Source: Terriglobia bacterium
Lineage (GTDB): Bacteria > Acidobacteriota > Terriglobia > Bryobacterales > Bryobacteraceae
Direction: 5' to 3'
Assembly: GCA_020073305.1 (NCBI GenBank)
Contig: JAIQFK010000024.1
Span: 1 to 64,000 of the forward strand
DNA length: 64,000 bases
Under the pieces are notes generated by a model, which was given only the letters and a program-made list of their open reading frames with translations, searched no databases and was not told the origin of the DNA. Position numbers and translations under genes: made by a program. Shown here one piece after another: positions 5,419 to 20,094 of the stretch (positions within the stretch are counted from its first letter, which is position 1; the number at the start of each line of letters is the position of its first letter).

Positions 5419-5563
5419 ACGCTTCATTACTGATACTCAGCCCCTTCAGTTCTTGACCGTCATGGACTCTGAATTGACAGCCTTCCTGCCGGTAATGCCT
5501 TCGAGTCCGGCTAGGACGCCCCGATAGTCGTTCTTATCGCACTGCATGGCCAGACCGCAGAAC

Positions 5564-6220
5564 TCACTTTACAGGCGCCGGAGGATGGCTGAGCTTCTCG
5601 AGATCGCGCAAAAGTTGTTTTACGACCTTGTCGGCTGCATCTGCCATGGCCCCCTTGTACTTTGCACCCTTGCTCTCCTGGGTGGTGGACCATACCACGT
5701 CACCATCGTTAGACACCAAGCGCACGGCTACTCGCGCATCATTCAGGGTCTCGACCGATGCTTGCGAGTCCTCAACGCCGAGTTGGCGAGCCACAAAACC
5801 TCCACTGCTGGAGCCCGACAACGAGCCGCCTGCTGGCCCCGAAAAGCCTGCAACGCTTGCGCTGCCCCCTCCGGCTGCCCCTGCAACTGAAGTTGCGGAG
5901 CCGAGAGCGTGAGCCTCTTGCGTCGTCTTTTCGAGCGCAGCACCCTTCAGCACGAGGTCAGCTTTCTCCCTGTTCTCGGTCACGATAAACCGCTTGCTCG
6001 CTCGGAGCGCGTCAAGCACCATGGCTTGCAGGGCCTTGTTGACGGGGTCCTCACCGAAGCTATCTAAGTAAATCCGCTTGGCCGTGAGTAACTTGTCTTT
6101 CAGTTGGGCATCCAGCTGCGATGCAATGTCTGTTTGCGCATTCCGGGGAGTCGAAGCAGAAGACGTTTGGCCTTTCGCGGAGGCCAGCATTGCGAATATT
6201 ATCAGGCCTTTCCACAGCAT
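5564..6220 (-). CDS. Secreted protein of unknown function with Gly/Ser-rich linker
   Basis: 218 residues with an N-terminal signal peptide (MLWKGLIIFAMLASAKGQ). An alpha/beta region follows (about 40-95) and includes RIYLDSFGEDPVNKALQAM and ADLVLKGAALE. A Gly/Ser/Ala-rich linker lies at about 105-140, then a second beta-rich part with DARVAVRLVSNDGDVVWSTT. The pattern resembles exported acidobacterial proteins that read a short-lived nucleotide or lipoprotein-like fold, but I cannot name the family. It forms a pair with the gene at 6230 (9 bases apart). The pair interrupts the fatty-acid gene block and is bracketed by heptameric repeats. Confidence 0.7.
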   Translation of the reverse strand: MLWKGLIIFAMLASAKGQTSSASTPRNAQTDIASQLDAQLKDKLLTAKRIYLDSFGEDPVNKALQAMVLDALRASKRFIVTENREKADLVLKGAALEKTTQEAHALGSATSVAGAAGGGSASVAGFSGPAGGSLSGSSSGGFVARQLGVEDSQASVETLNDARVAVRLVSNDGDVVWSTTQESKGAKYKGAMADAADKVVKQLLRDLEKLSHPPAPVK

Positions 6221-6229
6221 GGCAGTTCC

Positions 6230-6697
6230 CTAATTGCCCTTGCTGCTCTTACGGGCTTCTTCGTCCTGATACTCGATCTTACGGCCACTGCGAGCCTCAA
6301 GACTGGCCAGCGTCGTCCGGACGACATCCTTGCCGAGTTCCAATACGACTGCTTGCTGCTTCTCGCTATCGTCCAGGTAACTGACGGTCAAGAAATGCTT
6401 ACGCTTCTTTGACAAGAGAGCGATCGGCGAAACCGCGATGGCCAACCCCACCCGCCTACCCGCTTTTTGGCCGTATTCCAAGGTGTTCATGCGTTCATAC
6501 GGAATCGTCAAGTTCCCATGCTTGGATACGAAGGTGAATGCCTTTTCATCGGCAGTTGAAGATTTTCCCTCCGTTCCTTCCTTGATCGTTGTCGCTGTAC
6601 CCCCCACATACATTGCATTGTGGCTGCCAATGCCGGCGCGGGCCACGCAAGCAAGAAGGCACAACAGCGCGACAGCTGAACAGATTGATCGTTTCAT
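6230..6697 (-). CDS. Secreted protein of unknown function
   Basis: 155 residues with a clear signal peptide (MKRSICSAVALLCLLACVARA). The mature part contains a beta-rich segment (AFTFVSKHGNLTIPYERM), which looks like a small SH3-like or lipid-interaction fold, then the hydrophobic stretch VGLAIAVSPIALLSKKRKHF and a charged C-terminus. It is the first gene of the two-gene insert between thiolase and etfB. I found no catalytic motif and do not assign a function. Confidence 0.65.
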   Translation of the reverse strand: MKRSICSAVALLCLLACVARAGIGSHNAMYVGGTATTIKEGTEGKSSTADEKAFTFVSKHGNLTIPYERMNTLEYGQKAGRRVGLAIAVSPIALLSKKRKHFLTVSYLDDSEKQQAVVLELGKDVVRTTLASLEARSGRKIEYQDEEARKSSKGN

Positions 6698-6746
6698 CTA
6701 CATTTCTCCGAGACCGCTAACGCCCGGTCGGCGCCCAGCCCCAGTG

Positions 6747-6826
6747 CTAGGTTCAGGTACCAGGCATCAGCAGCCCGCTTGGGTGCTAACACCTGGCACC
6801 TAACACCTGGCACCTAACACCTACTG
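6747..6826. repeat. Heptameric repeat block R2, two facing arms
   Basis: The left arm (6747-6770) reads on the plus strand as CTAGGTT, CAGGTAC and CAGGCAT units. The right arm (6782-6826) reads on the minus strand as alternating TAGGTGY and CAGGTGT units. The arms can pair into a hairpin. The TAG stop codon of the thiolase gene (6821-6823) is itself the first part of a repeat unit. Confidence 0.85.
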
Positions 6827-8033: not shown

Positions 8034-10442
8034 TTAATTGCGCAGGGGCTTGCCCGTCTTCAGCATGTGCGCCATGCGTTCCTGTGTTTTCACATTGCCG
8101 CACAGGCTCAGGAACGCTTCGCGTTCCAGATCCAATAAGTACTGTTCAGAGACCAGTTGCTCACCCACCAGGCGGCCTCCAGCCAACACATAAGCCAGTT
8201 TTTCGCCGATCACCGCATCGTGATCGGTGATGAAGTGGCCTTGCTGGAAACTCCAAACGCCCAGCTTCAGCAGCGCGTACGCGGCGTCGCCCCCAACCTT
8301 GACGTCGGTGCGAGGAACACCCGGTACGTAGTGCGGCACCAGCTTTAGCGCCAGCGCCTTGGCGTCGGCGATCAGCCGTTCCGGATTCATTGAGATGGGA
8401 ACGCTGCGGTCGAGGAGCCCCAGGTTCTTGGCTTCCTCGGCGCTCATCGAAACCTTGGCCATGCCGATGAGCTCGAACACTTTTCGCGCGTCCTTCAACC
8501 GGAGCGTCAATTCCTTGCAGCCGCCGGCCGCCGGAATCAGGCCCACACCCAGCTCGACTTGTCCCATATAGAGTTCAGCCGAAGCCTGCGGAATCGTATG
8601 CAGCACAATCTCGCAGCCACCGCCCAGAGTCCGGCCAAATGGAGCCGAAACCACGGGTTTGGGGGCATATTTCAGGGCCATGTTGACTTGCTGGAAGCGA
8701 TTCACCGCTTCGTTTATCTCGTCCCATTCGCCCTCCTGCGCGGCAAGCAGGATCGGCACCAGGTTGGCGCCGACGCAGAAGGTTTCGCCTTCGTTGGCGA
8801 CGATCATCGCCTCGAAATTCCTCTTGGTCTCTTCGAGGCCCGCATACAGCATGCTGATGATGTCTTCGCCGATGGAGTTCATCTTGCTGTGGAACTCGAC
8901 GCACAACACGCCGTCGCCGACATCCACCAGCGATGCGCCGGCATTCTTCTTGACCACGCCGCGCGCGCGCTTGATGTCCGCCAGCACCAGGGTGCCGGGG
9001 CGGATGTCAATCGGCTTGTGCTCCATCTTGATGACGTCGAAGTACTGAGCATGCGGGCGGTCCCCTTCAGCCCAGCGATAGAGCGACGTCACTCCTTTGT
9101 CGACCATCTCCTGGATGTTCTTCGGCAGCACGCGGCCTTCTTTTTGCAACCGCCGCGCGATGTCCTGGAACCCGAGGGCATCCCAGAGTTCAAACGGCCC
9201 TAACTTGTGGCCATACCCCCAGCGGATGCCGCGATCAATATCCACGATGCGGTCGGAAATCTCGGGAATCATCTCCGCCGAATACAGGAAGTAGTCGCTG
9301 AACAGCTTCCAGAGAAAACGGCCGGCCCGATCGTCGGAGGAGATCAGAGCCTTGATGCGTTCCGGAACGTCCTCGATGACGTTGGCAGCCTCTACCGACG
9401 GGAACTTGGGCTTTTGCGTCGGATGGTATTCCATCGTTTTCAAGTCGAGGGCCCAGATTGACTTCTCTTCGCCCGTGACCACGCGCTTGTAGAAGCCCTG
9501 GCCGGTCTTCTCGCCCAGCCATTTCCGCTCGATCATCTGCTTTTCAAACGGCGGCAGCAGGAAGCGCTCGCTCCACTGGGTGCCCTTGTTGGCCTCAGCC
9601 AGATTGGGACTGACCTCACCCCACACGTCCAGGCCAACCAGGTCGAGCATTCGGAAGCTGGCGCTGTTCGGCAAGCCGATCAGGGGACCCGCAAGTGCGT
9701 CGGCTTCCTCTACGGTGTAACCGTCTTCCCAGGCGATTTTGCTAACGGTCGCGCCGAAGAAGCAGCCCACGCGATTGGCGATGAAGTTCGACGTGTCTTT
9801 ACACAGAACGACCCCTTTGCCAAGCCGGCGGTCGCCATATTCCTGAACGAATGACATCACCTCCGGATCGGTCTCCGCCCCGGGAATCACTTCCAGCAGG
9901 TGCAGGTATCGAGGTGGATTGAAGAAGTGCGTGCCAAGAAAGTTGCGGCGGAACGCAGGCGAGAAGCCTTCCGAGATCTTCGATAATGGAATTCCGCTAG
10001 TGGACGTGGAAAGAATGGTGCCCGGTTTTGCGACTGCTTCCACTTTGCTCCACAGGTCGCGCTTGATTTGCAGGTTCTCGGCAACCGTCTCGATGACCCA
10101 GTCGCAATCGGCGATGTCCTTGAGGTTATCGTCGTAATTGCCGGGCTTGACGAGCCGGATGGCATCCTCGGCGAAGAAAGCGCCGGGCTTTTGCTTCACC
10201 GCGGTTTGGATCGCTTTCACGGCCGTGGAAGAGCGGTTGGGTTCCTTAGGAGTGGTTCTGCTTAACAGCAACGAGGGTACCCCCGCGTTGGCAAAATGCG
10301 CGGCGATGCGCGTCCCCATTGTGCCGGCCCCGAGGATCGCGACGCGCCGAAGTGCTCTCAGCCCCGTTGGTTGAGCCAGATCAGCTCGTGGAATCTCCTC
10401 AGCCCGGCTGAGTTGGTCGATTGCATGTGCAGTTACCGCCAT
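8034..10442 (-). CDS. 3-hydroxyacyl-CoA dehydrogenase / enoyl-CoA hydratase fusion (FadN type)
   Basis: An 802-residue bifunctional beta-oxidation enzyme. The dehydrogenase comes first, with the NAD-binding motif GAGTMG at 38-43 and the substrate loop [19 protein letters not shown]. The crotonase domain is C-terminal (about 500-720) and carries the oxyanion-hole segment [10 protein letters not shown] and the catalytic glutamate contexts [10 protein letters not shown] and [12 protein letters not shown]. This order is the reverse of E. coli FadB/FadJ and matches Bacillus FadN-like proteins. It is the first gene of the minus-strand block and lies behind the promoter at 10747-10775. Confidence 0.94.
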
Positions 10443-10746
10443 GACTAGTTGCCTTCCTTTCTGTTTCTATTGGTTTTTTTCAAGCTCAAAATCCGTGGCG
10501 CGGCTCACCCGCGCTCCAGGCACACCTACTGGCATGCCTCTGCTTCCGCAGTCTTTGCTGGGTCTCGATGTTTCGCGCTAGTCCTGGAGGCGGGTTGATG
10601 ACCGACAGGTGCAGCCCACTGCAGCGTGACGCGGTATCAAAACCGTGCAGTGGCGCTTATCAAAGGTCTTCCGTTCCCCCGTCAGAAGGAAAGTCACTTC
10701 CACGTCGAGGTCCAAAACTTCTCTCGGTGAGATTTCCTTAAGATAA

Positions 10747-10775
10747 AGGATAATCTTATCCGATATTCCTGTCAA
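10747..10775 (-). promoter_or_regulatory. Sigma-70-like promoter for the fatty-acid degradation block
   Basis: On the minus strand a perfect -35 box TTGACA (10775-10770) is followed after exactly 17 bases by TATCCT (10752-10747). It points towards the gene starting at 10442. The match at -35 and the ideal spacing make it the best promoter seen in the window, although the -10 box is only four of six. Confidence 0.6.
10748..10761. promoter_or_regulatory. Palindrome overlapping the -10 box, possible operator
   Basis: GGATAATCTTATCC has 6-base perfect arms (GGATAA / TTATCC) around a 2-base centre and covers the -10 box of the minus-strand promoter. A repressor bound here would block the fatty-acid operon. 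No regulator gene is adjacent, so the cognate protein is unknown. Confidence 0.45.
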
Positions 10776-10797
10776 TCCAAATCCGGCGGTTTATACT
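10769..10797 (+). promoter_or_regulatory. Candidate promoter for the gene at 10815
   Basis: TATACT (10792-10797) is preceded at 17 bases by CTGTCA (10769-10774), which shares its bases with the divergent -35 box. The leader before the ATG would be only about 11 bases, so either the transcript is nearly leaderless or the true start of transcription lies elsewhere. Confidence 0.3.
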
Positions 10798-10814
10798 GAG
10801 ATTTCTCGACTTCA

Positions 10815-11585
10815 ATGGCACAGGCGGCCGAACCCGTTCAGTTGCACCAGGACACGCTGGGAGCCTATCTCGAGTATGTCCGCGAGACCGAGGCTCAGAT
10901 GGAACGAAGCATGCAAGGCGATGGCCCGTTTCTGTGGTCTGACGCCTCTCCGGAGCGGACCCGGCAACTCGGCCAGGGAGAGGCTATCGCGCAGCTCTGG
11001 TCTGGGAAGCGGCCGGTCCACGTGCCGGCTGGCCTGATCCACGACTGGATCGGAGCCATCCGTATTCCCAACGCCACCCTCGACGAAACCCTCGCCACCA
11101 TCCAGAATTACGACAATCACAAGAACATCTATAAGTCCGAGGTGATCGACTCAAAGTTGATCCGTCGCCACGGCAATGATTTCGAGATTTATCTGCGCCT
11201 CCTCAAGAAGAAAATCATTACCGTGGTCCTGGACACCGATCATGAGGTGCATTACGCGTCTTTGGATTCCACGCGGTGGTCCTGCCGCTCCTACACGACA
11301 CGGATTGCAGAGGTGGAAGATGCCGGCAAGTCTACCGAACGGGTGCTTCCGCCTGACACCGGCTACGGGTTCCTGTGGCGTCTCTACTCCTATTGGCGAT
11401 TCCGGGCAGGGGATGCCGGCGTCGATGTGGAATGCCGTTCCCTTTCGCTCACGCGCGATGTGCCCAAAGGACTTGGATGGATGATTGAACCGATCATCCA
11501 GAAGCTGCCGAGGGAATCGCTGATCCACATCCTGCACGCTACGCGCCAGGCACTGACTTCGCATGGACTTGCAGGCGGGTACTAG
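10815..11585 (+). CDS. SRPBCC/START-like protein, first gene of the NRPS locus
   Basis: A 256-residue cytosolic protein without signal peptide or membrane segment. From about residue 80 it reads like a helix-grip (SRPBCC) fold: HDWIGAIRIPNATLDETLA, then strand-rich sequence to the C-terminal helix region with ECRSLSLTRDVPKGLGWMI and PRESLIHILHATRQAL. The first 70 residues are helical and less conserved-looking. Members of this fold bind hydrophobic ligands or catalyse cyclisations. It lies 118 bases upstream of the carbamoyltransferase and in the same direction, but I cannot tell whether it takes part in the same pathway. Confidence 0.65.
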   Translation: MAQAAEPVQLHQDTLGAYLEYVRETEAQMERSMQGDGPFLWSDASPERTRQLGQGEAIAQLWSGKRPVHVPAGLIHDWIGAIRIPNATLDETLATIQNYDNHKNIYKSEVIDSKLIRRHGNDFEIYLRLLKKKIITVVLDTDHEVHYASLDSTRWSCRSYTTRIAEVEDAGKSTERVLPPDTGYGFLWRLYSYWRFRAGDAGVDVECRSLSLTRDVPKGLGWMIEPIIQKLPRESLIHILHATRQALTSHGLAGGY

Positions 11586-11607
11586 TACGGGTGGATGGTA
11601 AGCAATC

Positions 11608-11634
11608 CTACACATTGCAACCGGAGTTGTGTAG
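11608..11634. promoter_or_regulatory. Inverted repeat upstream of the carbamoyltransferase
   Basis: CTACACA (11608-11614) and TGTGTAG (11628-11634) form perfect 7-base arms separated by 13 bases, about 70 bases before the carbamoyltransferase start. The spacing fits a dimeric regulator site. Function is inferred only from symmetry and position. Confidence 0.35.
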
Positions 11635-11703
11635 ACTGAACAACAAGTACCCTAACCCAGGGGTAAGGAAGGACTTCGAGGTTTTCACCTCCAATGCGCC
11701 CGG

Positions 11704-13482
11704 ATGAACATCCTTGGAATCAGTGGCCTGGAAAAAGCAATTCGGTTCAAGAAGTCTCAATGGCCCGGCCTTGAGGACCGGGAGTACCGCATCTCCCAAG
11801 GCCACGATTCCGCTGCCGCACTGGTCGTTGATGGAAGGATAGTCGCGGCCGCAGCCGAAGAGCGGTTCAGCCGCAAGAAACACACCGGGGATTTTCCAGT
11901 TTGTGCCATCTCCCGCTGCCTGTCTGAGGCAGGGCTTTCCCTGGGTGACGTGGACGAGATCGCCCATGGGTTCGACTACGCCCCGTACCGGGAGCTTTAC
12001 TCGCTCGATCCGATTACGGCGAAATTGTACGACGAAGTCTTCGCCAAAGACGTCCTGCTGGCTCAAGTCAAACGATGCCTGCCTGCCTTCCCGGCGGAAC
12101 GGGTCCACCAGGTGGGCCATCATCTGTCGCACGCGGCGAGCGCCTTTTTCACTTCCGGTTGGGACGAGTGCCTGGTGATCATCCTGGATGCCATGGGCGA
12201 GGTCCAGAGCACATCCGTGTACCAAGGGCGCCAAGGCTCCCTGCGCAGCCTCTGTGAGATCTCCGCCAACGATTCCATTGGCATTCTGTACTCGCTGGTG
12301 ACGCTTCATCTGGGTTTCGATTTCAACGCCGACGAGTACAAAATCATGGGCTTAGCCCCTTACGGGAATCCCGAGCGCTTCCGGCCATTTTTCGAACGAG
12401 AGGTGCAACTGCGCAAAAACGGCACGATGCGAATTCCAATGCTGGGGTTGAACCGGACGAGAGATGAGCGCGAGAACTACCTTCTGACACGGAAATACCT
12501 CGATGAAAACCTGATCGGGCGCCGCCACCCCGAGGACGAGATCACCGAGGTACATCGCGATGTCGCCGCCGCCCTGCAGGAGGCTCTGGAACGGTGCGTG
12601 ATGCATGTGTGCACCTCATTCGCCCAGACCACGGGATTGCGCCGGCTGGCTCTGGCCGGTGGTGTGACACTGAACTGCACGGCCAATGGCAAACTGCTCC
12701 GATCGGGCCAGTTCGATGAGATCTATGTGCAACCCGCGGCGGGAGACGATGGCTCCGCGCTGGGAGCGGCGCTCTACCGCGCATCCCTAGCCGGGGAATG
12801 CAGAAATGAACGATTGCCCGTGCCGTTCTTCGGTCCGTCTCAACCCATGACGGCAGTCGAGACCGCGCTCGTGGAATTCGAGGACCGGATCGCGGTGAAG
12901 CGGTTTGACACTCTGGAGGAGACCTGCGCCGAGGCGGCGGGCCTGATTGCTGACGGCCGGGTGGTCGCATGGCATCGGGGGCGAATGGAGTTTGGTCCCC
13001 GCGCACTGGGCAACCGAAGCATCCTGGCGGATCCGGGCCATCCGGAGATGCGCGACCGAATCAATGCGATGGTGAAAAAGCGAGAGGCTTTTCGCCCTTT
13101 CGCCCCCGCCGTGTCGATCGAGCAGGCGCATGTCTGGTTTGATCTCCCGGCGGGTGCCAACTTGCCGTACATGATCATGACGGTGGACGTCCGAGAGCGT
13201 TATCGCCCAGCATTGCCGGCCATAACACATGTCAACGGGTCTGCAAGGGTGCAGACGGTCTCCGCAGACGATAACGAAGCGTTCCACAAACTTCTGCAAG
13301 CGGTAGGCAGGAGCACCGGCAAAGAGATGGTGCTCAACACGAGCTTCAATGTGAAGGGCCAGCCCATTGTCAATACGCCACGAGAAGCGATCGAGACCTT
13401 TCTCGGCACCGGGATCGACTGTTTGTTTGTGGAGGACATCCTGATTACGCGCGGCCAGGCAGACAAGGGCAGCAGACAATGA
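11704..13482 (+). CDS. Carbamoyltransferase (NodU/CmcH family)
   Basis: A 592-residue O-carbamoyltransferase expected to make carbamoyl-AMP from carbamoyl phosphate and ATP and transfer the carbamoyl group to a hydroxyl. The N-terminal Kae1-like domain includes SQGHDSAAALVVDG, the metal-binding HHLSHAASAF motif (about 139-148) and the ALAGGVTLNCTANGKLL segment. The C-terminal domain has the EFGPRALGNRSILADP signature and NTSFNVKGQPIVNTPREAI. All are intact. Its stop overlaps the NRPS start (ATGA, 13479-13482), so the two proteins are made together. The natural substrate is probably the NRPS product or an intermediate. Confidence 0.92.
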   Translation: MNILGISGLEKAIRFKKSQWPGLEDREYRISQGHDSAAALVVDGRIVAAAAEERFSRKKHTGDFPVCAISRCLSEAGLSLGDVDEIAHGFDYAPYRELYSLDPITAKLYDEVFAKDVLLAQVKRCLPAFPAERVHQVGHHLSHAASAFFTSGWDECLVIILDAMGEVQSTSVYQGRQGSLRSLCEISANDSIGILYSLVTLHLGFDFNADEYKIMGLAPYGNPERFRPFFEREVQLRKNGTMRIPMLGLNRTRDERENYLLTRKYLDENLIGRRHPEDEITEVHRDVAAALQEALERCVMHVCTSFAQTTGLRRLALAGGVTLNCTANGKLLRSGQFDEIYVQPAAGDDGSALGAALYRASLAGECRNERLPVPFFGPSQPMTAVETALVEFEDRIAVKRFDTLEETCAEAAGLIADGRVVAWHRGRMEFGPRALGNRSILADPGHPEMRDRINAMVKKREAFRPFAPAVSIEQAHVWFDLPAGANLPYMIMTVDVRERYRPALPAITHVNGSARVQTVSADDNEAFHKLLQAVGRSTGKEMVLNTSFNVKGQPIVNTPREAIETFLGTGIDCLFVEDILITRGQADKGSRQ

Positions 13483-16475
13483 GTGGGTGTGATATGCCTA
13501 ACGCGGGGCTCGACACCCGGGTTCCGTACGACGCGGACCGCTGCATCCACCAACTGTTTGAGGAGCAAGTGGCACGCACTCCCGACACGGTGGCGGTGAT
13601 CTTTCGGAACGACCCTCTGACCTATCGCGAACTCGACGCCCGCGCCAACCAGCTTGCACGCCGACTTCAACAACTTGGGGTAGGTCCCGGCTCGTTGGTC
13701 GGAATCTGTTTGGAACGCTCGTTGGAAATGATGGTGGGGTTACTCGCCATCCTGAAGGCGGGTGGAGCGTACCTGCCTCTCGATCCTTCTTACCCGCGCG
13801 AACGGCTGGCCTTCATGCTGGAAGACGCGCAGGTGCCTGTGGTTCTGACACGGAGCCGTCTGGCAGGCTCTCTACCCGAGCATGCGGCGCAGGTGGTCGC
13901 GGTGGACGCGGACTGGCCCGCGATCGCGCAACTCAGCCCGGAACGCCCCACCAGCGGCGCGCGCTCCGAGAATCTCGCCTATGTCATCTACACTTCCGGG
14001 TCCACCGGAAAGCCCAAAGGCGTGATGGTGACTCACCGCAACGTGGTCAACTTTTTCGCTGGAATGGACCAGAGAATCGGACCTCAACCCGGCGTCTGGC
14101 TCGCCGTGACCAGCATTTCGTTCGACATTTCGGTATTGGAATTGTTCTGGACGCTGGCTCGCGGGTTCAAGGTGGTCCTTCAGGAAGATGAGGCCATTGG
14201 CGCCGTGTGGCGTGTTCCCAGCGCGCCAACGGCAAAAAAGACGATCGAGTTCAGCTTGTTTTATTTCGCCGGTGATGAGCGTCAGAACGGCGGCAAGTAC
14301 CAACTGCTGACCGAGGGGGCCCGCTTCGCGGATCAAAACGGCTTCACGGCGGTGTGGACTCCGGAGCGGCACTTTCACGCTTTTGGAGGGCTTTTCCCAA
14401 ATCCGTCGGTTACCAGCGCCGCGCTTGCCATGATCACCCAACATGTACAGATCCGGGCGGGTAGCATCGTGCTGCCGCTACACGACCCGCTTCGCGTGGC
14501 CGAAGAGTGGTCGGTGGTGGACAACCTATCGCACGGACGGGTGGGTGTTTCCTTCGCGTCCGGATGGCATGATCGGGATTTTGTCTTTGCGCCTCACCAT
14601 TACGCCGAGCGCAAGAAGGTCATGTTCCGCGAAATCGAAACGGTACGCGCCCTTTGGCGGGGCGAGGCCATCCAGCGCCAGCGAGGCGGTGGCGAGAATA
14701 CAAGCGTTTCCATCCTGCCGCGCCCGGTCCAGCCCGAACTGCCGGTCTGGGTGACCGCCGGCGGCGATCCGGAAACGTTTCGCCTGGCCGGCGAATCACG
14801 TTCTAACCTCCTCACTCACCTGCTCGGGCAGAGCATGGAAGAGCTGGCGGCGAAGATTGCCGTTTATCGGAAAGCCTGGTCAGGCGAAGGGCAGGGCCAC
14901 GTAACCCTGATGCTGCACACGTACGTGGGGAACACGCCGGAAGAGGTCGCCGAGAAAGTCCGAGGACCGTTCTGCGAGTATCTGAAAACCTCGGTAGACC
15001 TCATGAAGCAAGTTGCCAAGGGCCTCGGAGTCGAGTTTGCGTCCGGCAATCTGACGCCCGCGGATCTGGAGTCGCTGATCGATCACGCCTTTCACCGTTA
15101 TTTTGAAACGAGCGGCCTGTTCGGAACGCCGGACACGTGCCTGGCACTGGTCGAGCGGCTGAAGGCCATGGGCGTGGATGAAGTGGCATGCCTGATTGAC
15201 TTCGGGATTGAGCCTGAGGCCGTGCTGGCGAGCCTGGAGAACCTGCGTTTATTGATGGAAAGAGCGAACCACGAGCAAGCTGACCGCTCCGATTTCTCCA
15301 TTCCGGAACAGATTGTGGCCCATGGCATATCGCACTTGCAGTGCACGCCGTCCCGGGTCAGGATGCTGCTGATGACGCCCGAGGGGCCGCGGGCCGTTGG
15401 TTCCCTACGCAAGCTCATGGTCGGCGGGGAAGCGCTGCCGCAGTCGCTGGCGGAGCAACTTCACGCGCTTCCCGTCGGCGAGATTTTCAATATGTACGGC
15501 CCGACCGAGACGACCATCTGGTCGACAACGCACCGGCTGGTGAAAGGGGAAAACCCCGTCCCCATTGGCCGCCCCATCGCCAATACCTCGGTCTACGTTC
15601 TGGATGAGAGTCTTTCGCCGGTTCCCACGGGTGAAGCAGGCGAGCTGTTTTTGGGCGGAGACGGCGTTGTCGCGGGATATCTCAACCGGCCCGAACTGAC
15701 CGCGGAGAAGTTCATCGCAAACCCATTCTCTTCCGAAGCCGGCTCGCGTCTGTACCGGACCGGAGACCTGGTGCGGTTCTCGCGGGCGGGCGTAATCGAG
15801 TTCCTGGGCCGCGTCGATCACCAGGTGAAGATACGGGGCTTTCGCATCGAGCCCGGCGAGATTGAAGCCGTGCTGGACCAGCATCCGCACGTGCGTCAGG
15901 CTATCGTCAGTTCTACCGAGGATTCCGAGGGCACCCGGAGCCTGGTGGCCTACGTCCAATCCGGCGAGGCGAAGGCGCCAACGGTGCGCGAACTCCGCCG
16001 CTTCGTGGGGACGAAACTGCCCGCCCACATGGTGCCTTCGACTTTCGTCTTTCTAGAAAGCTTTCCGTTGACTCCCAATGGGAAGATCGACCGGCGCATG
16101 CTGCCGAAACCGGGGGTGTCACAACGCCAGGCGTGCGCCGCCGCAGCGCCCAGCGCCCTGGAGGAAAAGCTGTCGGCCATCTGGGCAGACGTTCTTCGGG
16201 TGGAAAGGGTCGGGGTCCGCGACAATTTCTTTGACTTGGGCGGACATTCGCTGTCCGCTGTCCAGATGACTTTCCTCGTCCGGCGCGCATTCGCCGTCGA
16301 GCTTCCTCTGCAGGCGGTGTTTGACTTTCCAACCGTCTCCGGACTCGCCGCCGAACTCGAAGCGAGGATCACCCAACCAGGCGCCAGCTTCGGACCCCAG
16401 CCTGCGATCACGCCGGCAGCCAACCGCCGCAAAAAAATAACGGCGCCCGAAGGTGGAGCCAAGCTCAGTGCATGA
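13479..16475 (+). CDS. NRPS: adenylation domain interrupted by a luciferase-like monooxygenase, plus carrier domain
   Basis: 998 residues. The adenylation domain starts at about residue 20 with core A3 YTSGSTGKPKG (171-181) and A4 FDISVLELF (215-223). A flavin-dependent luciferase-like monooxygenase of about 345 residues (253-599) is then inserted. Adenylation resumes with A5 NMYGPTETT (671-679), A7 YRTGDL (759-764), A8 (777-796) and A10 NGKIDRR (867-873). A carrier domain follows with LGGHSLS, phosphopantetheine site S924. The specificity residues read off by alignment to GrsA are D216, I217, L220, Q621, M647, G649, M672, I680, W681 and K869, close to the glycine code. There is no condensation domain, so this is an initiation module. 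MtaG of myxothiazol biosynthesis has a comparable glycine A domain with embedded monooxygenase. Confidence 0.93.
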   Translation: MSGCDMPNAGLDTRVPYDADRCIHQLFEEQVARTPDTVAVIFRNDPLTYRELDARANQLARRLQQLGVGPGSLVGICLERSLEMMVGLLAILKAGGAYLPLDPSYPRERLAFMLEDAQVPVVLTRSRLAGSLPEHAAQVVAVDADWPAIAQLSPERPTSGARSENLAYVIYTSGSTGKPKGVMVTHRNVVNFFAGMDQRIGPQPGVWLAVTSISFDISVLELFWTLARGFKVVLQEDEAIGAVWRVPSAPTAKKTIEFSLFYFAGDERQNGGKYQLLTEGARFADQNGFTAVWTPERHFHAFGGLFPNPSVTSAALAMITQHVQIRAGSIVLPLHDPLRVAEEWSVVDNLSHGRVGVSFASGWHDRDFVFAPHHYAERKKVMFREIETVRALWRGEAIQRQRGGGENTSVSILPRPVQPELPVWVTAGGDPETFRLAGESRSNLLTHLLGQSMEELAAKIAVYRKAWSGEGQGHVTLMLHTYVGNTPEEVAEKVRGPFCEYLKTSVDLMKQVAKGLGVEFASGNLTPADLESLIDHAFHRYFETSGLFGTPDTCLALVERLKAMGVDEVACLIDFGIEPEAVLASLENLRLLMERANHEQADRSDFSIPEQIVAHGISHLQCTPSRVRMLLMTPEGPRAVGSLRKLMVGGEALPQSLAEQLHALPVGEIFNMYGPTETTIWSTTHRLVKGENPVPIGRPIANTSVYVLDESLSPVPTGEAGELFLGGDGVVAGYLNRPELTAEKFIANPFSSEAGSRLYRTGDLVRFSRAGVIEFLGRVDHQVKIRGFRIEPGEIEAVLDQHPHVRQAIVSSTEDSEGTRSLVAYVQSGEAKAPTVRELRRFVGTKLPAHMVPSTFVFLESFPLTPNGKIDRRMLPKPGVSQRQACAAAAPSALEEKLSAIWADVLRVERVGVRDNFFDLGGHSLSAVQMTFLVRRAFAVELPLQAVFDFPTVSGLAAELEARITQPGASFGPQPAITPAANRRKKITAPEGGAKLSA

Positions 16476-18987
16476 CTTCGCTGAGAATCCCAACGGCGAC
16501 GACCCAACGTACGCGGAACCGCTGACGTTCCCCATATCGTTTGGCGAGCAGCGTTTGTGGTTTCTGGACCAACTGGAACCCACCAAGTCCGCTTACAACG
16601 TGCCAGAAGCCGTCCGGCTCACCGGCCAGATCCACGCGGACGCGCTCGAGAGCGCGATCCAGGAGATCGTCCGGCGCCATGAGTCCCTGCGAACCACCTT
16701 CGGGGAGGTGAACGATCTCCCGATGCAGATCGTGGCGCCTTCACTCGACGTGCGACTGGTGGCGAGGGACCTGCGGAATCTGCCCGCCGCCGAGCGGGAG
16801 CCCGAGGCGGGGCGGCTCGCCAGCGAGGAGGCCAACGCGCCGTTCGATCTGAAGCGGGGGCCGTTGATCCGCGCTCTGCTCATCCGGCTCCAAGACCACG
16901 AGCATATTCTGGTGGTGGTCATGCACCACATTGTTTCCGAAGGGGGCTGGTCCATGGGCGTGTTCCGCCGGGAACTCAGCGCGCTCTACAACGCCTATTC
17001 GTCCGGCCAGCCTTCGCCGCTGGCGGAGCTGCCCATTCAGTACGGAGACTACGCGGTGTGGCAGCGAGACACACTGAAGCCTCAGGTGCTGCGACCCCAT
17101 CTCTCCTATTGGAAGGACCAACTGGCAGGGGCGCCGGCGCTGATCGACTGGGCAGTCGGCCGTCCGCGTCCGGCGGAACAGACCTACAACGGCGCCCGGC
17201 AATCTGTCCTCCTTCCCAAGAATCTCAAGCACGGGCTTGATGTTCTGGCCCGCCAGGAAGGGGTCACGCTCTTCATGACCCTGCTGGCGGCGTTCCAGGT
17301 TCTGCTGTACCGCTACACCGGCCAGGAAGACCTGGTTGTGGGGGTGCCGGTCGCCGGACGCACCCCGCAGACTGAGCCGTTGATCGGTTTGTTTCTCAAC
17401 GCCCTGGCGCTTCGAACACAGCTCTCCCCCTCGGTTTCCTTTCGCCAGTTCCTGAAACGGGTGCGAGAGGTCGTGGTCAGCGGCTTGACTCATCAAGATC
17501 TGCCTTTTGAATGGTTGGTGGAGGCCACCCACCCGGATCGCAGCATGGCCTTCACGCCGCTGTTCCAGGTCATGTTCTCGTTCCAACCTCCAGGGCAGGC
17601 ACTGGATCTGAATGGCCTCACAGAAACCCCTTTTGAGGTCGAGAGCAAGTCCTCCGCGTTCGATCTGACCCTGTTCGCTTGGGAGATGACCGACGAGCTG
17701 AAAATCCGATTCGAATACAGCACCGATCTGTTCGATTCCGCCACGATCAGCAGCATGCTGGATTATTTTCAGGTGCTGCTGGAAAGCATGGTTCGAAACC
17801 CCGACGAGCGGATCTCGACGGTCGAACTCGTGACCGGCAAAAAGCGCACCCATCGTTTGCTGGATCAGAATCAGTCCGAAACAGGCCCGGTTTTCGTCGC
17901 GCCGCGGGATCCTTTAGAGCGCTCTCTGGCAAGCATCTGGGAGCATCTCCTGAACGTCAAGCCCATCGGCGTGCGCGACAATTATTTTGATCTGGGCGGA
18001 CACTCGCTCCTTGCGGCGCGCCTTTTCTCGGAAATCAGAAGAGGGTTCGGCGTCAGCCTGCCCTTGTCCACGCTTTTCCATGCGCCGACAGTCGAACAAC
18101 TGGCACAGGTTCTAAGAAAGGACCGGCACTCGGCTCCGCCGCGCTCGCTGGTCCCGATTCAGCCCAACGGATCGAAGCCTCCGCTGGTGTGTGTCGCGGG
18201 GCTAGACGGCGAAGCCGTTTTCTTCCGCCGCCTCGCGGACTTCCTCGGGCCGGATCAACCGATCTTCGGATTAGAGCCGCCCGGCAGGGATGGCCAGCAA
18301 CCCCTTCTGCTCCGGCTGGAAGATATCGCCTCTCATTATGTTCGCGAGTTGCGCGCCGCGTACCCGAACGGTCCCTATTACCTGGGGGGCTACTCCTTTG
18401 GCGGTCTGGTCATCTTTGAAATGGCGCAGCAACTCCATCGGCAAGGCGAAAAAGTCGGCTTGGTGGCCTTGCTGGACACCTGGAACAAGACGTACGTCAA
18501 ACAATTGCCGCGGACGCAACGATGGCGCCAGATATTCCAGCTTTACCAATACCATTTCAGCCGGCTGTTGTTTGGCCCCGAAAGGCTGGGTTACGTGAAG
18601 CTCAAAGTCGGACACCGGGTGCTACGAACGATTTGCTGGTACTGCGATAAGACGGGTCGCCCGTTACCCCAGCAGGCGCGCAAGTTGTACGACGTCCAGT
18701 CGTTTGCCGCGGCCAATTACGTACCAAAGGTTTATCCGGGGCGACTGGATTTGTTTCGAGCGAAAGTGAAGCACCAACTCGAGATCCACGACGGCGAACT
18801 GGGGTGGGGACGCCTGGCGCAAGGCGGCGTCGCCGTTCATGAGGTCCCCGGGGATCATCTCACCATGAATGTCGGCGGCAATCTGCAGATTCTTGCGGAA
18901 CAGTTGAAGGCTTGCCTGGAGCAGGCGCAACACCGCCCGGCGCGAGTGTCACATCGTTCTGCGGAGAACCCTGCGCTAGTTTCGTAG
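16453..18987 (+). CDS. NRPS: condensation, carrier and thioesterase domains, no adenylation domain
   Basis: 844 residues. Condensation domain at about 28-460 with C1 SFGEQRLWFLDQ, C2 RHESLRTTF and the active-site motif H158-H159-I-V-S-E-G-G, where the usual HHxxxDG aspartate is replaced and one residue is added. The domain is followed directly by a carrier domain (LGGHSLL, site S518) and a type I thioesterase with GGYSFGG (nucleophile S648) and a late histidine in PGDHLTMN. No adenylation domain is present, so this carrier must be loaded in trans or be bypassed. The GTG at 16453 overlaps the previous gene by 23 bases; GTG at 16468 is an alternative start. Confidence 0.92.
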   Translation: MEPSSVHDFAENPNGDDPTYAEPLTFPISFGEQRLWFLDQLEPTKSAYNVPEAVRLTGQIHADALESAIQEIVRRHESLRTTFGEVNDLPMQIVAPSLDVRLVARDLRNLPAAEREPEAGRLASEEANAPFDLKRGPLIRALLIRLQDHEHILVVVMHHIVSEGGWSMGVFRRELSALYNAYSSGQPSPLAELPIQYGDYAVWQRDTLKPQVLRPHLSYWKDQLAGAPALIDWAVGRPRPAEQTYNGARQSVLLPKNLKHGLDVLARQEGVTLFMTLLAAFQVLLYRYTGQEDLVVGVPVAGRTPQTEPLIGLFLNALALRTQLSPSVSFRQFLKRVREVVVSGLTHQDLPFEWLVEATHPDRSMAFTPLFQVMFSFQPPGQALDLNGLTETPFEVESKSSAFDLTLFAWEMTDELKIRFEYSTDLFDSATISSMLDYFQVLLESMVRNPDERISTVELVTGKKRTHRLLDQNQSETGPVFVAPRDPLERSLASIWEHLLNVKPIGVRDNYFDLGGHSLLAARLFSEIRRGFGVSLPLSTLFHAPTVEQLAQVLRKDRHSAPPRSLVPIQPNGSKPPLVCVAGLDGEAVFFRRLADFLGPDQPIFGLEPPGRDGQQPLLLRLEDIASHYVRELRAAYPNGPYYLGGYSFGGLVIFEMAQQLHRQGEKVGLVALLDTWNKTYVKQLPRTQRWRQIFQLYQYHFSRLLFGPERLGYVKLKVGHRVLRTICWYCDKTGRPLPQQARKLYDVQSFAAANYVPKVYPGRLDLFRAKVKHQLEIHDGELGWGRLAQGGVAVHEVPGDHLTMNVGGNLQILAEQLKACLEQAQHRPARVSHRSAENPALVS

Positions 18988-20018: not shown

Positions 20019-20094
20019 TGGTGAGCCGGGCGGGACTCGAACCCGCGACCCTTTGCTTAAAAGGCAAATGCTCTACCGCCTGAGCTACCGGCCC
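20019..20094 (-). tRNA. tRNA-Lys, anticodon TTT
   Basis: The minus strand folds into a standard 76-base tRNA: acceptor stem GGGCCGG with CCGGCTC, D arm with AGCTCAGGCGGTAGAGC, anticodon loop CTTTTAA (anticodon at 20061-20059), T arm GGGTTCGAGTCCC, and an encoded CCA end at 20021-20019. Confidence 0.97.

Follow-up and report, generated by a model that had tools for sequence, protein, structure and literature searches.

A domains that carry a flavin monooxygenase inside the adenylation fold are known from natural product pathways. MtaG in myxothiazol biosynthesis and its melithiazol counterpart have the monooxygenase between motifs a4 and a5 of a glycine A domain, according to the account in PMC10204066. 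There the peptide made so far is attached to the glycyl residue and leaves as a terminal amide. SolF, from the solanimycin pathway, also contains a flavin monooxygenase in its glycine A domain; the insert is placed between a8 and a9 of an elongation module, and alpha-hydroxyglycine is found in solanimycin B (as described in PMC10204066). In the portions of the literature covered, alpha-hydroxylation by such embedded enzymes is a conclusion drawn from the products and the gene content.

Here we study a 64,000-nucleotide stretch of DNA from a Terriglobia bacterium (the window, meaning the whole stretch that was analysed). It contains an operon of about 7.3 kb with three overlapping genes on the same strand, coding for a carbamoyltransferase, a glycine-type module with an embedded luciferase-like monooxygenase (LLM), A(LLM)-T, and a C-T-TE protein without an A domain, see Table 1. 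The reading frames of all three genes are open. The middle gene, coding for the A(LLM)-T protein, overlaps the carbamoyltransferase gene in an ATGA at its own start codon. As the first-pass annotation noted, the module resembles MtaG, as that enzyme is described, in the type of insert and its site in a glycine A domain. It differs from MtaG and the melithiazol enzyme in that it starts the chain, and from SolF in both the site of the insert (A4/A5) and the position of the module (starter).

An LLM insertion in a glycine A domain is therefore already of a known kind, while its pairing with a carbamoyltransferase and an A-less C-T-TE protein looks new. A bare glycine A(LLM)-T next to these two partners was not found in the other loci examined, nor was the same three-gene variant found in the literature searched, where subscription papers are thinly covered and an absence counts for little. 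With a probability of roughly 0.4, we read the three genes as a minimal NRPS operon that would make a small product from N-capped, alpha-oxidised glycine, with the carbamoyltransferase as the capping enzyme.

Table 1. Features of the three-gene operon; positions are those of the window, residues those of the respective protein.
Feature	Position	Strand	Evidence and remarks
Carbamoyltransferase (NodU/TobZ/GdmN family), 592 aa	11704..13482	+	PF02543 8.5e-61, PF16861 4.1e-67
A(LLM)-T, 998 aa, a starter module of glycine type on its own	13479..16475	+	
A domain N-terminal part, residues 27-236, motifs through A4	13557..14186	+	PF00501 (AMP-binding) best stretch
Embedded FMN-type luciferase-like monooxygenase, residues 258-592	14250..15254	+	TIGR04020; Bac_luciferase 265-568; PuwE 6ket fold match
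A domain C-terminal part, residues 603-869, A5 to A10 lysine-containing NGK	15285..16086	+	TIGR01733 second stretch from 603; PF13193 (AMP-binding_C) 794-869
Carrier domain T1, residues 896-959	16164..16355	+	PF00550 (PP-binding); LGGHSL at residue 920
C-T-TE protein, 844 aa, without A domain	16453..18987	+	Start overlaps A(LLM)-T gene
Condensation domain	16543..17844	+	PF00668 1e-106
Carrier domain T2, residues 492-553	17926..18111	+	PF00550
Thioesterase domain	18181..18909	+	PF00975 7.7e-25; GYSFGG (18388), GDH (18850)

Pfam and NCBIfam profiles agree on the order A(N-half)-LLM-A(C-half)-T. The insert scores 516.5 bits against TIGR04020, where the curated cut-off is 244.45, and it is the sole match to that profile at E <= 0.001 in the 6.98-Mb assembly. 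Both the AMP-binding profile of Pfam and TIGR01733 match the protein in two stretches, one on either side of the insert. The motifs YTSGSTGKPKG (residue 171) and FDIS (215) precede it, and MYGPTETT (672), YRTGDLVR (759), GRVDHQVKIRGFRIE (777), NGKIDRR (867) and LGGHSL (920) follow it; these we take to be the usual A-domain and carrier core motifs. By FDIS before and MYGPTETT after, the insert lies between A4 and A5. The interruption had been claimed at about 14235-15275, with intact cores on both sides; the LLM match falls inside that range and the core motifs are indeed present around it.

A model of the whole A(LLM)-T protein was made with AlphaFold2 from a 17-row alignment (mean pLDDT 80.2, and pTM 0.53, a value at which the mutual arrangement of the domains is unreliable). 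The modelled A core superposes on Txo1 6p4u over 411 residues with an rmsd of 1.6 (Z 55.7), and the modelled insert matches PuwE 6ket with a TM-score of 0.87 by target length and 52% identity. In the model, then, the adenylation core fold is retained across the insert. PuwE, from puwainaphycin biosynthesis, is the closest solved structure to the LLM of the window (387.5 bits); its PDB title describes the OX domain of a hybrid PKS/NRPS, whereas the LLM of the window sits in an A domain. Chance or an assembly fault is excluded as the origin of the insertion, because the same insertion occurs in 17 other loci.

The classical glycine code is DILQLGLIWK. From an alignment on the GrsA PheA fragment, with the numbering checked against PDB 1amu, the code of the window is read as DILQMGMIWK, two changes away; this reproduces the code read in the first pass. 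All 18 interrupted A domains compared, the window included, have a DILQ-type glycine code, and the exact code DILQMGMIWK is found in 9 of the 17 from the mapped loci (window included) and in L166. At the last position L120 has A and L045 has W, where an extra insert or the end of the frame disturbs the alignment. That the A domain loads glycine is thus a well-supported prediction.

At E <= 1e-60, TIGR04020 is found in 9 of the 396 genomes of a phylum sample and in 6 of the 237 genomes of the family, the genome of the window being counted in both. A scan of named genomes with general A-domain patterns gave at least 79 loci, and among plasmids an LLM match was present in 81 records, three of which were followed. 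The 18 interrupted A domains consist of 17 among the mapped loci (window included) and L166. L165 and L167 are excluded from the counts, as their LLMs lie outside any A domain by BLAST; L085, where the contig ends inside the LLM and a C domain lies upstream, is excluded from the A-domain counts but used in the LLM tree.

What precedes the A domain distinguishes the window from its relatives. A condensation domain lies directly upstream in 7 of the 17 relatives (L029, L040, L045, L064, L079, L120, L121), and the other ten have a formyltransferase domain (L039, L041, L042, L043, L044, L046, L049, L122, L031, L166). For L031 (genome G247, 8291-13365) this domain is in a neighbouring ORF that overlaps the A(LLM)-T ORF, an arrangement that is either a genuine split or an assembly frame error. 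Unlike all 17, the module of the window has neither domain in front: the upstream frame is open for 68 codons, running into the preceding gene, with no condensation or formyltransferase domain in it, and by Pfam the A(LLM)-T protein does not match Formyl_trans. The proposed chain-initiating position is thereby upheld, as is the difference from MtaG. A starter position is not in itself unusual, however, since 10 of the 17 relatives are starters headed by a formyltransferase. Among the loci compared, it is common for a glycine A(LLM)-T to start the chain, but not for it to do so with nothing in front.

Compared with an LgrA-type formylating NRPS initiation module, the protein has no fused formyltransferase. 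Like MtaG-type interrupted glycine A domains it has a TIGR04020 LLM, an A4/A5 insert with the fold kept and a glycine code, and it groups with the other interrupted A domains in the tree; unlike an MtaG-type terminal amide-forming module, it has no condensation domain in front. The formyltransferase-headed starters (among them L041 of Loktanella, L043 of Agrobacterium, L039 of Acanthopleuribacter pedis and L166 from the same family) share the glycine code, the A4/A5 LLM and initiation with the window; they have a formyltransferase and a shortened C-like stretch in front, both of which the window lacks. Near L041 and L039 a PKS of the type KS-AT-KR-DH-T-TE is confirmed, where the window instead has C-T-TE. 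A formyltransferase domain combined with a monooxygenase domain in a glycine or initiation module was not found in the literature searched, with its thin coverage of subscription papers.

In a tree of A domains, calculated with the insert omitted, the 17 interrupted domains and three uninterrupted ones form a clade of 20 rows (support 100/99, bootstrap not settled). The three nested uninterrupted domains are a paralogue in the same genome (L118) and L147 and L148 from genomes G276 and G067. By this tree, the three are more likely to have lost the LLM, although a single clade of interrupted A domains is not rejected (AU p 0.09). An on-the-spot insertion into the A domain of the window was considered and is not favoured, as this domain falls among the interrupted ones. 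In the LLM tree of 30 domains (18 A-embedded and 12 others), four changes are needed and the two kinds are not cleanly separated; the nearest LLM to that of the window comes from an Opitutae MAG (67%).

The paralogue L118 (G000:C51, 8308-10662) is an uninterrupted A-T with 67% and 56% identity to the two halves of the A domain and a glycine-type code, DILQLGMIWK. It has a shortened C-like stretch in front, and by eye a polysaccharide-type tyrosine kinase gene is nearby; possibly L118 is an NRPS fragment serving a polysaccharide locus. In L043 (Agrobacterium sp. AGB01, 5443-6804 and 16164-17759), a formyl-type A(LLM)-T is found near a polysaccharide export protein, a setting that again hints at a tie between A(LLM)-T modules and polysaccharide loci.

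The first gene of the operon belongs to a two-domain family. Both PF02543 and PF16861 are above their cut-offs, so that by Pfam the Kae1-like N-terminal and the C-terminal carbamoyltransferase domains are present. Its relatives in the PDB are novobiocin carbamoyltransferase (9s2t), GdmN and TobZ, members of the same family that either bear the name O-carbamoyltransferase or modify finished antibiotics; their substrates are presumably alcohols of the novobiocin and geldanamycin type. In a tree of 20 carbamoyltransferases, made by a quick method, the window and six others stand apart from the remaining 13 (SH-aLRT 97). The five closest are those of the window, G001, G010, G276 and G067, and four of these five adjoin an A domain.

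In G276 (69%) and G067 (67%) the orthologous carbamoyltransferase directly precedes a stand-alone glycine-type A-T, as in the window. Their A domain has no LLM and a PKS (KS-AT-KR-DH-T) comes next, where the window has the LLM and then C-T-TE. In G010 (66%) a luciferase-like monooxygenase, an A domain and the carbamoyltransferase are separate proteins encoded in a row (L139, 2816-7528) in a polysaccharide-type locus, and this is a split version of the three activities in the window. No A domain adjoins the G001 orthologue (71%), whose contig is 8.3 kb long. Further away, two plasmid homologues at 46% were followed out of 77 plasmid records listed. The one from Burkholderia glumae opens a PKS run and precedes a PKS protein with A-T, and the one from Kitasatospora opens an NRPS run and precedes an NRPS protein with T-C-T. 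In the Kitasatospora locus (L149, 11634-14441) the T-C-T protein has no A domain, so that a second A-less NRPS protein is found next to a carbamoyltransferase of this clade.

The comparison with the relatives suggests what the carbamoyltransferase may do. Since all 17 relatives have a condensation or formyltransferase domain and the window has neither, the carbamoyltransferase could fill the capping gap, taking the role that these domains have elsewhere. In the proposed pathway the A domain would first activate glycine and load it onto T1. The carbamoyltransferase would then carbamoylate the starter glycine, most likely at the amine, to give ureidoacetyl-S-T1. By analogy with the reactions described for MtaG and SolF, the LLM would hydroxylate the alpha-carbon of the carrier-bound glycine, giving ureidoglycolyl-S-T1. 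Finally the condensation domain would join the ureidoglycolyl unit to an acceptor on T2, and the thioesterase would release a small product. Capping is placed first, so that the LLM would meet an N-acyl glycyl thioester as it may do in the relatives. A free or acylated alpha-hydroxyglycine on the carrier had been predicted initially; the capped form is the more likely of the two, because the free one is expected on chemical grounds to lose ammonia. The carbamoyltransferase and A-less C-T-TE genes, which that first prediction left unmentioned, change the predicted product.

It should be kept in mind that N-carbamoylation of the starter glycine is put forward as a hypothesis, because the named solved members of the family are O-carbamoyltransferases, and those relatives that are not so named act on alcohols of the novobiocin or geldanamycin type. 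PRISM takes free hydroxyls to be the acceptors of carbamoyltransferases, as stated in PMC4787774; by its title, one entry in the reference list of that paper deals with padanamide and the N-carbamoylation of 2,4-diaminobutyrate. For carbamoyltransferases of the TobZ, GdmN and novobiocin type, the portions of the literature covered describe no amine acceptor. The general form of the idea, that TobZ-family N-carbamoylation and an LLM together yield a ureidoglycolyl-S-carrier and that LLM glycine modules always work on N-capped glycine, we consider rather doubtful.

The order of the two reactions could also be reversed. The LLM would then act on glycyl-S-T1 or on a later intermediate, and the carbamoyltransferase would O-carbamoylate that hydroxyl or another one in the product. 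This agrees with the activity for which the solved relatives are named, and apart from the LLM no enzyme that would make a hydroxyl was found in the operon. The G276 and G067 operons speak for the amine instead, as they combine an orthologous carbamoyltransferase and a glycine A-T without an LLM, thus without an LLM hydroxyl to carbamoylate. In addition, an alpha-carbamoyloxyglycyl thioester with a free amine would be expected to be unstable. On balance we regard hydroxylation before carbamoylation as unlikely. The PKS in G276 and G067 could, on the other hand, supply a hydroxyl of its own, which weighs against N-carbamoyl capping. An argument that their products keep no hydroxyl was dropped, as a pattern search found no canonical H-x3-G-x4-P in four such DH-like domains (L147, L148, L041, L039), which may or may not dehydrate. 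By eye, these domains read H-x4-G-x4-P.

Even if glycine is capped and then hydroxylated, the product need not survive on the carrier. In myxothiazol and melithiazol biosynthesis, the carbinolamide is cleaved and a glyoxyl thioester remains, as reported in PMC10204066, and an MtaG-like cleavage here would turn the capped alpha-hydroxyglycyl thioester into urea and glyoxylyl-S-T1, the latter to be used by the condensation domain or the thioesterase. The same account has alpha-hydroxyglycine kept in solanimycin B and skyllamycin, and spending a carbamoyl group on the release of urea would appear wasteful; we find such a cleavage improbable.

The last gene raises further points against the proposed pathway of capping, hydroxylation and release. 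As the C-T-TE protein has no A domain, T2 must be loaded in trans, and it has no obvious loading enzyme; the glycine-type paralogue L118 elsewhere in the genome may be a candidate. Beyond the A domain of the window, two in the genome exceed the TIGR01733 cut-off, one of them L118. The active-site region of the condensation domain (16924-16947) reads HHIVSEGG and not HHxxxDG, with one extra residue compared with HHxxxDGW, and GG at this site is found in no other of the 212 readable motifs among 240 condensation matches examined. The condensation domain is the single PF00668 match in the genome. The G001 orthologue without an adjoining A domain counts against the pathway as well.

The operon lies in a variable segment. 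On its 5' side is a locus of beta-oxidation type with genes for an acyl-CoA ligase, electron transfer flavoproteins, a thiolase and a hydroxyacyl-CoA dehydrogenase, and directly before the operon a 256-aa protein (10815-11585) without a Pfam or NCBIfam match. On the 3' side are a tRNA-Lys (20019-20094), regulators, and a protein with weak similarity to fucose isomerase. The congener G001 aligns with the left flank as far as 10466 and again with the right flank from 20003, its two matching parts being on separate contigs; for G002 the right flank alone could be read, and the contig ends there. Both congeners searched lack a TIGR04020 domain. Because of this and of the break in G001 homology, the 10.5-20.0 kb segment beside the tRNA-Lys is a variable, accessory one. 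A clean empty site was looked for in the two congeners and none was seen, with the G001 flanks on two contigs and the G002 contig ending.

Another reading takes the operon for the decaying remains of a larger cluster, its assembly line non-productive or partly lost. The absent front domain, the second module without an A domain and the altered C motif would fit this, as would the only condensation domain of the genome and the two congeners without TIGR04020. Decay is distinctly improbable, however, given three reading frames that are open and overlapping, an LLM far above its cut-off, and core motifs present in the A, T and TE domains.

The system consists of three proteins encoded in about 7.3 kb, and each step from the loading of glycine through capping and hydroxylation to release could be traced on intact proteins. 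If it is the amine that is carbamoylated, NRPS initiation with a carbamoyl cap would take its place beside initiation with a formyl or acyl cap, and genome mining would gain a rule: where a glycine A domain contains an LLM, an N-capping partner goes with it. The proposed pathway, if true, would be an assembly-line route to ureide (allantoin-like) chemistry.
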